The position numbers were made by a program, and so were the translations under genes. 39,370 nucleotides of DNA from Candidatus Yanofskybacteria bacterium RIFCSPLOWO2_01_FULL_42_49. GTDB taxonomy: Bacteria; Patescibacteriota; Minisyncoccia; 2-02-FULL-40-12; GWA2-44-9. Below are positions 10,353 to 36,282 of this stretch, piece after piece; the first letter of the stretch is position 1; each line of letters begins with the position of its first letter. Where the stretch lies: NCBI GenBank assembly GCA_001795615.1, contig MGKI01000010.1, forward strand, positions 1 through 39,370, written 5' to 3'. The notes under the pieces are model-generated. The model was given only the letters and a program-made list of their open reading frames with translations. It did no database searches and was not told the DNA's origin.

Positions 10353-10365
10353 GTTTGGCAAATTT

Positions 10366-10489
10366 CTAATTATTCTAATTGCTCTAATTGACCTAAATAA
10401 ATCCCAATGACTTAATGACTAAAATTTTAGACATTAGATGTTTTAATATTGGGTATTATTTAGAACAATTAGGTTAATTAGAATAATTT
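10366..10489. repeat. Large imperfect inverted-repeat element built from CTAATTN-type heptamers
   Basis: AATTATTCTAATTGCTCTAATTGACCTAAATAAATCCCAATGACTTAATGACTAAAATTTT is nearly the reverse complement of the following AAAATTTTAGACATTAGATG...TTATTTAGAACAATTAGGTTAATTAGAATAATTT. Confidence 0.8.
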
Positions 10490-10497
10490 CACTGGTT

Positions 10498-11757: not shown

Positions 11758-11760
11758 TTT

Positions 11761-11871
11761 AAATTTCTAATTACTAATTCCTAATTTCTAATGAAATGCC
11801 TAATTATCGAATTTCTTAAATTTGGTCATTGTGGCATTGGTAATTTTATTAGAAATTAGATATTAGAAATT
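11761..11871. repeat. Dispersed intergenic element, second copy of the 6224-6322 family
   Basis: TTTCTAATGAAATGCCTAATT...GGTCATTGTGGCATTGGTAATTTTATTAGAAATTAGATATTAGAAATT; supplies the TAA stop of the pfkB-type gene. Confidence 0.75.
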
Positions 11872-13526: not shown

Positions 13527-13531
13527 AAGTA

Positions 13532-13648
13532 AAATCTCTAATCTCGAAACCCTAATCTCTAAATAATCTCAAAATTCTAATCTCAAAATGTTTTTGAATT
13601 TTGATATTTGAGATTGTTTAGAAATTAGAAATTAGGATTTAGAAATTT
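13532..13648. repeat. Inverted-repeat intergenic element (CTAATCTC.../...GAGATTGTTTAGAAATTAG)
   Basis: Left arm CTAATCTCTAAATAATCTCAAAATTCTAATCTCAAAA pairs imperfectly with right arm TTTTGAATTTTGATATTTGAGATTGTTTAGAAATTAG; right arm shared with 25982-26167. Confidence 0.75.
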
Positions 13649-17153: not shown

Positions 17154-17307
17154 TTAGCTTTTAGCTTTTAGCTTTTAGCTTTTAGCTTTTAGCTTTTAGC
17201 TTTTAGCTTTTAGCTTTTAGCTTTTAGCTTTTAGCTTTTAGCTTTTAGCTTTTAGCTTTTAGCTTTTAGCTTTTAGCTTTTAGCTTTTAGCTTTTAGCTT
17301 TTAGCTT
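17154..17307. repeat. Perfect (TTAGCTT)x22 heptanucleotide tandem array
   Basis: 22 uninterrupted identical 7-mers counted directly, filling most of the divergent trxB/PMT intergenic region. Confidence 0.98.
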
Positions 17308-17328
17308 TTTTATTATATCATATTCATT

Positions 17329-22774: not shown

Positions 22775-23035
22775 CTATCTCTCTATCGACTTAGATTTTT
22801 TGGAGAAAACATAGAGGTAAAGAATGTCGAGAATACCTGCGGTGTTAGTAACAAGCAAGACAACAAACCAGACCTTGTGAGCATGACGAGCTGATTTCCA
22901 CAACGCCATCCCCTTCCAAACCAAAGACCAAGCAATCAATAAGATAAAGATGGCAGAAAAACCAGCTCCAAAAGACATTCCAAGCCATGATCCGCTCATC
23001 ATTTGCCTGCCCCATTCAAAGTTGTTGTACATCAT
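22775..23035 (-). CDS. DUF5652-like small membrane protein
   Basis: Two TM segments with FSAIFILLIAWSLVWKGMALWKSARHAHKVWFVVLLVTNTAGILDILYLYVF. Confidence 0.75.
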   Translation of the reverse strand: MMYNNFEWGRQMMSGSWLGMSFGAGFSAIFILLIAWSLVWKGMALWKSARHAHKVWFVVLLVTNTAGILDILYLYVFSKKSKSIER

Positions 23036-23130
23036 AAGTTAAAGCCAATAGCCACTAGTCGTTAGCCACTAGTAATCCGGCAATTACCAGACTAGTCACT
23101 AAAAACTAGCCGCCAATAATCATTTTCGAC

Positions 23131-23535
23131 CTATTCTATTATACCATCTTCTTTTAGCTCGGCCAAAATATCCGCCGGTATTGGTATTTGCTTGCCGACC
23201 GGGCTTACCCCTGGGTAGCGCCAAGCGCTTATAACGATGAGCCTGGAATTTTGAATTTTGAATTTTGAATTTTGAGTTCGCGGCTTCGCCGTAGCATACA
23301 TCACCCATATTTCCGTCGGTTTTTGTTTTGTTCCGGAAGACTGCATTGCCGCCAGTGTTCCTTCGGCAACGCCGTCTTCCATTCTTTTTGGATTGCGAAT
23401 GATTCTTTTAACCCTGTCTGCCGTCAAACCGTAAAACATCATCTTTCTTACAGAATGCTGGGTCCAGTAATATTTAGAGTCGTTTTTGGGAATATTGAAA
23501 CGCATCCCGTTAGAAGTCGCTGCTACGCAGTCCAA
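23131..23535 (-). CDS. Hypothetical protein (DUF4258/toxin-like fold possible)
   Basis: YYWTQHSVRKMMFYGLTADRVKRIIRNPKRMEDGVAEGTLAAMQ...; likely start at MRFNIPKND; contains in-frame repeat RTQNSKFKIQNSR. Confidence 0.6.
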   Translation of the reverse strand: MDCVAATSNGMRFNIPKNDSKYYWTQHSVRKMMFYGLTADRVKRIIRNPKRMEDGVAEGTLAAMQSSGTKQKPTEIWVMYATAKPRTQNSKFKIQNSRLIVISAWRYPGVSPVGKQIPIPADILAELKEDGIIE

Positions 23536-23664
23536 GAACGATCAGTTCGTGCGCAGAACAACTGTTGTTATTACTTATTTGATACATCACTCGTTTAACC
23601 CGTTAGGGCGACTTCTAACGGGACGCATGATAAATAAGATAGCAAAGAAACGCCTTTCAACAAA

Positions 23665-23703
23665 CCTGTGGATAATCGACTTCGCAAGTCGATTATCCAC
23701 AGG
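23665..23703. repeat. 39-nt perfect palindrome (copy 2), intergenic
   Basis: CCTGTGGATAATCGACTT CGC AAGTCGATTATCCACAGG; loop inverted relative to copy 1. Confidence 0.95.
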
Positions 23704-23719
23704 GGTAATTTAAGAGGCG

Positions 23720-24472: not shown

Positions 24473-24817
24473 CTAGTAGTCCCTTCTTCCGCCAAAACCG
24501 CCTCTGCCGCCGCCAAAACCGCCTCGGCTACCGCCTCGATCGAAACCTCCCGGTCTCCTCGGACGATCGGCCATCGGTTTTGCTTCATTAACCACTAATG
24601 TTCTGCCGTCCAGTTCTTTACCATTCCACATATCAATGGCTTTCTGGGCTCCTTCTTCCGTAGACATTTCTACGAATCCGAATCCCCTGGATCGGCCGGA
24701 CATTTTATCCGTAATCACCGCAGCTGAAACTACTTCACCGGCCTGAGAAAACGCGTCCCTCAATCCGGCTTCGGTGGTGTCGTATGACAATCCGCCAACA
24801 TATAATTTCTTCTCCAT
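24473..24817 (-). CDS. RRM-domain RNA-binding protein with Gly/Arg-rich tail
   Basis: KLYVGGLSYDTTEAGLRDAFSQAGEV...GRSRGFGFVEMS; tail GGFDRGGSRGGFGGGRGGFGGRRDY. Confidence 0.95.
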   Translation of the reverse strand: MEKKLYVGGLSYDTTEAGLRDAFSQAGEVVSAAVITDKMSGRSRGFGFVEMSTEEGAQKAIDMWNGKELDGRTLVVNEAKPMADRPRRPGGFDRGGSRGGFGGGRGGFGGRRDY

Positions 24818-24819
24818 TA

Positions 24820-24891
24820 CTAACTAGTGCCTAGCGACTAGTGCTTAGCGACTAGTTTTTTACTAGTGGCTAGTGGCTAGTGGCTAGTTAC
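24820..24891 (-). promoter_or_regulatory. CTAG-heptamer leader element upstream of the RRM gene
   Basis: On the minus strand ~90% identical to 36012-36084, same orientation, ends 2 nt before the ATG. Confidence 0.7.
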
Positions 24892-24985
24892 TGTCTTTAA
24901 TTTAGTAGGACCGACCTCTCGCCAAGTCCCTACTAAGTAAATAGAGGAAACTACCGACAGAGAAACCTACAGTAGCCTAAGTATA

Positions 24986-25981
24986 TCATAGTACAGCCCT
25001 TTTTACAAGCCTTCTCTCTATAACCTGACTTCCGATAACAGCAATGACTACCAGTATCAAATAAATACCGAGAAGCTCTTGGAATGAAAAGGATAGTCTG
25101 CGGAGCGAACCCAGTATAAAAGCCGAGTACCAGGAAACGCTGGAAATGGCGCCGAGAGCAAAAGCCAGTTTTCTAAGCCTGTGCAACTCGCCTGATTCAT
25201 GATGATGCGATTCGCCAAAAGAAATATGCACCAATTTAGGCGATATTAATAAATTAAGAAATGCCCCGTTGATAATTATAACTCCCACAACGATCATTTT
25301 CACCAGAAATTTAGAAGAAATCAGAAGTCGCTCTGACGCCGGCAGATACAACCCGATACCGGTAAGTACAATCAGCGCCAAGGTAAACCAAATTACCTGA
25401 GACAAAGTTCTAAGAATTTCCGATTCCGACTCTGAAATTTTAAAATCTTTAAGAAATTTGAAAAAGAAAACATCAGTAATCGTCGCTCCACCAAGACCAA
25501 TGGCTGCGGCGATAAGATGCAGGGTCAAAATTGCCGTCCGATATTCTCCTACAAGTGCGGCAAAGTTATGCGGTGAGGCAAAAACCGCCAATCCGAATAT
25601 GCCGGTACAAAAGCCCGCCGAAATAAGACACCAGGTACACCATTGCTTTAGCGCAAAAGCCTGAATAAAAGTAAGGTAAAGAGAAAATAAAAAAGCAACG
25701 ATTGTTAGAGAAAAAACACCAAATACCAAAATCTGGGGCATCTCCACGGGAAGGGCCATAAAAATGCCATAGGTTAAAACCACAATTAAATAATACGCTA
25801 TCCCCAAAAGTTCAACCGGAACCCCGAAAAATTTTGAGTAATCACTGAAAATGACCGTCTCGCAGTTAGATTTTAACGGACAAATAAGAGCTTCTTTATA
25901 AACCTTCTTGTGCCTTATATAAGCGGCGAGTAAAAAACCGCTAAAGGCGATGAAGATGATTATTGTGGAAGAAGTAATCAT
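24986..25981 (-). CDS. VKOR-family protein with an extra C-terminal multi-TM domain
   Basis: VKOR signature (CPLKSNCETVIFSDYSKFFGVPVELLGIAYY...KQWCTWCLISA) followed by ~190 aa of TM helices with a HHHESGELHR loop. Confidence 0.8.
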   Translation of the reverse strand: MITSSTIIIFIAFSGFLLAAYIRHKKVYKEALICPLKSNCETVIFSDYSKFFGVPVELLGIAYYLIVVLTYGIFMALPVEMPQILVFGVFSLTIVAFLFSLYLTFIQAFALKQWCTWCLISAGFCTGIFGLAVFASPHNFAALVGEYRTAILTLHLIAAAIGLGGATITDVFFFKFLKDFKISESESEILRTLSQVIWFTLALIVLTGIGLYLPASERLLISSKFLVKMIVVGVIIINGAFLNLLISPKLVHISFGESHHHESGELHRLRKLAFALGAISSVSWYSAFILGSLRRLSFSFQELLGIYLILVVIAVIGSQVIERRLVKRAVL

Positions 25982-26167
25982 AAAATCTCTAAACTCTAAT
26001 TTCTAATCCCTAATCTCTAAACAAATCCAATCCGCCAATCGGCGAACCAAATCTCCAAACAACCCTTCGGGCATGTCCCGCCACGGCGGGACGGTTTAAA
26101 AATTTTGAATTTTGAATTTTAATATTTGAGATTATTTAGAGATTATGGTTTAGGATTTAGAGATTAT
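25982..26167. repeat. Heptamer inverted-repeat element with internal GTCCCGCCACGGCGGGAC palindrome
   Basis: Left arm CTCTAAACTCTAATTTCTAATCCCTAATCTCTAAACAAATCC; right arm GAATTTTAATATTTGAGATTATTTAGAGATTATGGTTTAGGATTTAGAGATT. Confidence 0.8.
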
Positions 26168-35841: not shown

Positions 35842-36011
35842 ATCCCTTAATTATACACCGAATATACTGAAAAGTCAAGTCGCTTTCGCTCTAAAATTGA
35901 CTTTCATCTCAATGCTCTATATACTTTATCACTAGTTAAGTCAGAGATCAATCGGCTGGTTTAAACTCATTAAATTGTGCCATTTATCTCACTAACGGTC
36001 GAATTATAATA

Positions 36012-36084
36012 GTTAACTAGCCACTAGCCACTAGCCACTAGAAATTCACTAGTCGCTAGGCACTAGTCGCTAGGCACTAGTTAG
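36012..36084 (+). promoter_or_regulatory. CTAG-heptamer leader element upstream of the zinc-ribbon gene
   Basis: (CTAGCCA)x3 CTAG AAATTCA then CTAGTCGCTAGGCA repeats, ending CACTAGTTAG next to the ATG; TATAAT at 36005-36010. Confidence 0.7.
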
Positions 36085-36282
36085 ATGGCATACGATAACA
36101 ACAACGGCGGCAATAACGGTGGAAGAGATTTTGCCCCGAGAAAGATGTACAGCGGAAGCTGGAACTGCTCAAAATGCGGTAAAGAAATCACGGAGTTGCC
36201 TTTCGAGCCGGATCCGGCCCGATTGGACAAACTGCTTTGCAGAGACTGCCACAGAGAACGAGCGCAGTCTTTCCGAAGATAA
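36085..36282 (+). CDS. Zinc-ribbon (CxxC...CxxC) small protein
   Basis: NCSKCGKEITELPFEPDPARLDKLLCRDCHRERAQSFRR; Asn/Gly-rich N-terminus. Confidence 0.9.
   Translation: MAYDNNNGGNNGGRDFAPRKMYSGSWNCSKCGKEITELPFEPDPARLDKLLCRDCHRERAQSFRR

Follow-up and report, generated by a model that had tools for sequence, protein, structure and literature searches.

Why should the start codons of two small genes be preceded by almost the same seven-base repeat sequence? The window, i.e. the whole stretch of 39,370 nucleotides analyzed here, is contig C10 of a genome assembled in 14 contigs and totaling 807 kb, a small size which, together with the small genomes of its relatives, suggests a Patescibacteria-like organism. 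The window contains a quasi-palindrome of CTAG heptads (24820..24891, minus strand) that adjoins the start codon of an RRM protein gene on its 5' side. A second hairpin copy (36012..36084, plus strand) lies in the same position relative to a zinc-finger gene. An earlier note on this DNA had described the two as a shared leader of about 90% identity, ending at or within 2 nt of the ATG, and its sequence, coordinates and orientation were found to be correct: by BLAST within the genome, the RRM leader is 93% identical to 36014-36084 over 71 nt (E 1.0e-24), and the ATG follows after 2 nt at the RRM gene (24817) and after 0 nt at the zinc-ribbon gene (36085). The RRM gene (24473..24817, minus strand) encodes 114 aa with a Gly/Arg-rich tail and an RRM_1 domain (PF00076, 7e-23), while the other (36085..36282, plus strand) encodes a CxxC-x17-CxxC protein of 65 aa that is probably a treble-clef zinc finger (PF23477, 4e-7).

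The left arm of the RRM leader consists of CTAGCCA repeats and the right arm of CTAGTCG and CTAGGCA in alternation. Four-bp CTAG blocks pair with each other, and the three-base spacers pair partly, with internal loops between the blocks. When RNA structure was predicted, as the earlier note had proposed, each leader folded into a single long hairpin, with -28.9 kcal/mol (z -5.0) at the RRM gene and -28.7 kcal/mol (z -3.3) at the zinc-ribbon gene. Sigma-70-like promoter sequences were found upstream of both genes, namely TTGTAA-17-TATACT at 24980..25008 (minus strand) and TTGACT-17-TATACT at 35897..35925 (plus strand), each being a consensus match only. A sense-strand U-tract, as expected of an intrinsic terminator, was sought after both hairpins and found at neither. 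That no Shine-Dalgarno motif is evident at the leaders is true yet uninformative, with GGAG, GAGG or AGGA upstream of only 32/237 starts across the genome versus 18/237 in a control window; its absence was dropped as a sign of special initiation, since the whole genome barely uses Shine-Dalgarno. In a 269-kb sample, positions -12 to -3 before starts are A-rich and such motifs are nearly absent.

A dispersed family of CTAG-heptad palindromes

The leader is not private to these two genes. A third near-identical copy, in the same orientation as the other two, precedes ftsZ (C2:32173-32242; 94% over 70 nt, 1e-25), and BLAST revealed about ten weaker copies in the genome. A pattern scan allowing at most two mismatches gave 36 matches, all in contigs C2, C4, C8, C10 and C13 (reversed control: 0), to which BLAST added one copy in C6; the copies occupy about 13 places on six contigs. 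The copies lie between ftsA and ftsZ, pilB-like and pilT-like genes, two pilin-like genes, MFS and polX, dksA-like and comM, uvrB-like and ruvA, tlyA and mutM, and rplN and rplX, as well as before an RNase-H-like gene and a DUF5652 gene (22775-23035, minus strand), where a weaker quasi-palindrome sits in reverse orientation at 23049..23109; these gene names were read off translations rather than taken from a database, and the genes were called with a simple home-made caller. Genes with a copy before them hence include ruvA, mutM, polX, comM, rplX, pilT-like and pilin-like genes besides ftsZ. Most copies stop 0-7 nt short of a start codon, the clear exceptions being a groES copy and one in the ribosomal operon. 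The mutM start is secure, because the PELPEVET motif comes after its TTG. Spacers and loop differ among copies. The note had named random positions or orientations as evidence against a regulatory role; orientation relative to the gene is indeed mixed, with about half of the copies opposite, but the positions are intergenic and mostly abut starts. The shared leader is one copy of a dispersed intergenic family of CTAG quasi-palindromes, which the genome has alongside other heptamer families.

In the 269-kb sample of the genome, the gaps held 37 period-7 and 46 period-14 runs, versus 0-5 for each of the periods 4-6 and 8-13, and this enrichment of tandem seven-base units over other periods is what characterizes heptameric intergenic repeats. 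Heptads were present in 42/204 tandem, 6/27 divergent and 0/27 convergent gaps. Median fold z was -4.4 in tandem gaps with heptads and -1.6 in those without, compared to -0.04 in coding sequence. Sequence common to another gap was found in 69 out of 194 sampled gaps, in families of 20, 12, 8, 5 and fewer members, and several unrelated heptamer families coexist. Nested hairpins made of other families (AATTTCT, AATCTCT and similar units) lie in the window at 11758-11855, 13527-13638, 25982-26163 and 10353-10497, built of YTAR heptads on the outside and TTTTGAA heptads on the inside, in some cases with GC cores; at the same junctions in the congener G002, heptads are absent, shorter or unrelated.

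Turnover was assessed against G002 at 42 conserved neighboring gene pairs; the reciprocal best proteins of the two species have a mean identity of 67%. G002 lacks many of the heptad hairpins at the matching junction, and at several junctions a heptad hairpin in one species faces a short gap in the other (112 versus 2, 182 versus 3, 95 versus 8, 137 versus 13 and 91 versus 32 nt). Although junctions with and without an insert can be seen, about 67% protein identity is too distant for clean junctions or for target duplications, as a MITE would have, to be read, and copying by insertion is for this reason deduced from family structure. The ftsZ gene serves as the tested example: most relatives have no hairpin upstream of it (median z -1.2), while the site carries CTAG heptads in our genome and a heptad palindrome of unrelated sequence in G002. 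The element at the RRM and zinc-ribbon genes, on the other hand, is common to both genomes, which a purely selfish, short-lived insert does not predict. In G002 the arms of the zinc-ribbon copy have diverged yet still pair, and its loop holds a GC hairpin, CCCGCCATGGCGGG.

We infer that the CTAG element spreads by copying. Insertion next to a start would be tolerated in a genome that barely uses Shine-Dalgarno, as the RNA would fold away into a hairpin and leave the start codon preceded by few nucleotides. The heptad hairpin would then, at most sites, be a recent, lineage-specific and mostly tolerated insert.

A hairpin and a leader RNA upstream of RRM genes

A different picture emerges at the RRM gene. 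The 80 nt upstream of RRM genes had a median fold z of -3.2 (27 loci), versus -0.64 for 181 other starts in the relatives' genomes (p 4e-8). Restricting the comparison to the 12 members of the family that lack heptads still gave a difference from control starts (p 8e-6), and eight hold-out genomes, not used in forming the idea, gave a median z of -3.9. The hairpin has a median span of 63 nt and ends 2-9 nt (about 6) before the start in almost every relative within the family. Its sequence is unrelated between genera, and also in the congener G001. In at least six genomes it is supplied by heptad repeats, i.e. CTAG heptads in our genome and G002, CGAATAA/TTCGTAA in G001, CAACTAA/GTTGTAA in G005 and G021, and further heptads in G015 and G016. 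Two-sided compensatory pairs were found at RRM loci in G003/G018 (five), G019/G024 (three), G011/G020 (two) and G012/G027 (one), with none broken, and at the zinc-ribbon hairpin of our genome and G002 (two, likewise none broken); the counts come from few, small alignments with an RNAalifold structure chosen to fit, G014/G022 and G009/G004 having been excluded as too poorly aligned. That unrelated hairpin sequences, heptad or not, occupy the same slot separates selection on structure from the spread of repeats, and points to selection for the shape of the hairpin rather than its letters.

Between the promoter and the hairpin lies a conserved leader RNA (24899..24970, minus strand; GTAGGTTTCTC ... 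TAGTAGG-AAC ... CGAGAGGTCG ... CCTACTA), which begins about 10 nt downstream of the promoter sequence, and relatives carry a -10-like box at the matching place. A model search of 197 genomes found it in 25, with one copy each in 24 of the 28 genomes of the family and in one other genome of the order, and always upstream of an RRM gene. Five of the 12 pairs in its hairpin covary on both sides. The Rfam 15 covariance models gave no match for our leader region or for the loci of five relatives. Pairing of the 5' UCUC with the loop GAGA would form a pseudoknot; with a covariation permutation p of 0.07, which is only suggestive, such a contact between loop and 5' end is plausible. The 5' GUAGG could alternatively pair with the CCUAC strand of the hairpin. 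In our genome, base pairing is predicted between the UUUCCUCUAUU tract of the leader (24899-24970) and the start region AAUGGAGAAGAAA (24806-24821, minus strand), which would hide the start codon. Start-codon sequestration by this pyrimidine tract was rejected as a general feature, being predicted here and in some relatives but inconsistently, with a median unpaired probability of 0.48. As regards an RNA thermometer, which would hide the ribosome site or start codon and melt on warming, the local hairpin does not include the RRM start codon, and folding of the full leader predicts this codon to be paired in some species only.

The proposal of a 5' UTR control element is supported at the RRM gene, with its start-adjacent hairpin and a leader RNA kept across the family, but not in the form of a joint regulon with the zinc-ribbon gene. 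The cold response raised in the earlier note is unsupported. At the RRM site, the heptad hairpin appears to fill a structural slot that is kept across a taxonomic family, downstream of the leader RNA, and its letters have seemingly been replaced repeatedly, often by heptad repeats. The hairpin is presumably transcribed, in which case it would most likely control in cis how the RRM mRNA is translated or how stable it is, and the RRM protein itself might open it. A more specific model, which we offer tentatively and consider doubtful as it stands, is a two-part cis-regulatory RNA for the RRM genes of this lineage, in which a 5'-terminal leader RNA, perhaps pseudoknotted, is followed by a shape-only hairpin rebuilt from heptad palindromes.

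Alternative readings and comparison with known repeats

Taken together, we favor, with a probability of roughly 60%, a reading in which the CTAG-heptad quasi-palindromes are dispersed by copying and mostly tolerated, and in which one of them has been domesticated at the RRM gene as a shape-selected, start-adjacent control hairpin. The strongest competitor, although an improbable one, is that replication slippage and template switching produce the heptamers and their inverted arms in gaps under weak constraint, without any function, and that the RRM hairpin is a coincidence. Heptamer repeats are over-represented in the intergenic DNA of many bacteria, which is unexplained (PMC4692102), and a scan of contigs for five heptads found CTAG heptads, among the matches listed, in Shewanella, Vibrio, cyanobacteria, Bacteroidetes and other groups, i.e. 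in widely separated phyla, with four-unit CTAG arrays in 14 out of 100 genomes searched (our own included). Slippage would also suit a perfect array of 22 TTAGCTT units without an inverted arm at 17154-17309, lying in a 179-nt divergent gap whose counterpart in G002 is a 36-nt junction without repeats. What it fails to explain is that RRM hairpins without heptads are equally strong and show compensatory changes, that three near-identical copies share the same irregular spacer order, which needs copying rather than independent slippage, and that convergent gaps have no heptads.

Slightly less probable still is a dedicated regulon, in which the CUAG leader would be a sequence-specific binding site for a protein, e.g. 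the RRM protein, that co-regulates the RRM, zinc-ribbon and other genes post-transcriptionally. The placement of most copies just before start codons would fit this, as would the near-identity and common orientation of the RRM, zinc-ribbon and ftsZ copies and the presence of the first two in G002; moreover, a TAACTGA regulon has been proposed in Beggiatoaceae for heptamers located just upstream of starts without ribosome-binding sites (MacGregor 2015, PMC4679880). Against it, the genes that follow the copies have mixed functions, about half of the copies point the other way, and ftsZ of G002 has a different heptad sequence. Relatives that have the RRM protein, including G001, carry unrelated sequences before its gene, making recognition of CUAG by the RRM protein, the autoregulation suggested in the earlier note, unlikely as a conserved mechanism. 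A joint RRM/zinc-ribbon regulon was rejected as the main reading on account of the mixed gene set and orientations.

Least probable is that heptads act as insulators or terminators, whose stops and hairpins block read-through between neighbors or end transcripts. Three units do put a stop in every frame, because seven is not a multiple of three, and of the 37 units in tandem gaps, 29 contain a stop codon on each strand, versus about 28% for random heptamers of the same gaps. These units, however, are not independent, as they belong to common families and arms. Moreover, promoter-like sites accompany the RRM and zinc-ribbon copies, no upstream reading frame is known there that would need stopping, no sense-strand U-tract follows the hairpin, and heptads are absent from the convergent gaps where terminators belong.

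We classify the CTAG element as a variant of the intergenic heptamer repeats with REP-like dispersal, and not as a REP or terminator; tentatively, we also leave it outside the MITEs and RNA thermometers. Literature searches on candidate-phyla bacteria yielded nothing specific about heptamer or palindromic repeats. The closest likeness is to the TAACTGA repeats of Beggiatoaceae, cyanobacteria and Bacteroidetes (MacGregor 2015, PMC4679880), which are also seven-base intergenic units located nucleotides from starts, with no Shine-Dalgarno, stop codons in the unit and mixed downstream genes including ribosomal proteins. Those, however, are direct repeats without predicted structure, whereas CTAG heptads form the arms of strong hairpins, and several heptamer sequences coexist here, unlike in the TAACTGA set (PMC4679880). 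Tandem TAACTGA does not occur in our genome. The heptameric simple sequence repeats GGGAATC of Xanthomonas and GGGGATT of Nostoc (PMC4692102) and the four-unit heptamers of Geobacter (PMC2700814) are likewise gap-enriched, dispersed and sometimes inverted, but they are G-rich, quadruplex-forming or GC-rich, while those described here are mostly YTAR plus three bases and pair with a partner arm.

REP/REPIN elements with their RAYT (Y1) transposases are also dispersed extragenic palindromes in many copies, and our genome has one Y1 transposase gene, but CTAG heptads are longer, periodic and do not adjoin it. Mobilization by a RAYT was rejected: the sole Y1_Tnp locus is flanked by a different palindrome (CCTGTAGATAATCGACTTGCGAAGTCG...), with no CTAG heptads beside it. 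A perfect palindrome in the window, CCTGTGGATAATCGACTTGCGAAGTCGATTATCCACAGG (23506-23719), recurs in several gaps, and a near-identical one adjoins the only Y1 (RAYT-like) transposase gene (L120, C1), for which it may be the REP. In the dksA-comM gap, the CTAG hairpin also includes the core of this palindrome. In E. coli, rpsA has a structured, autoregulated leader that lacks a Shine-Dalgarno sequence. Like the RRM leader, it comprises start-adjacent hairpins kept as shapes before the gene of an RNA-binding protein; there is no homology between the two, and autoregulation of the RRM gene is a hypothesis.

Many bacterial genomes are enriched in heptamer repeats, on whose origin and function there is no agreement. 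The leader and hairpin constitute a candidate regulatory RNA that can be tested, for the gene of a bacterial RRM protein and in a lineage with scarcely any use of Shine-Dalgarno sites. If the two-part model were true, repeats that look selfish would be interchangeable parts of an autoregulatory RNA.
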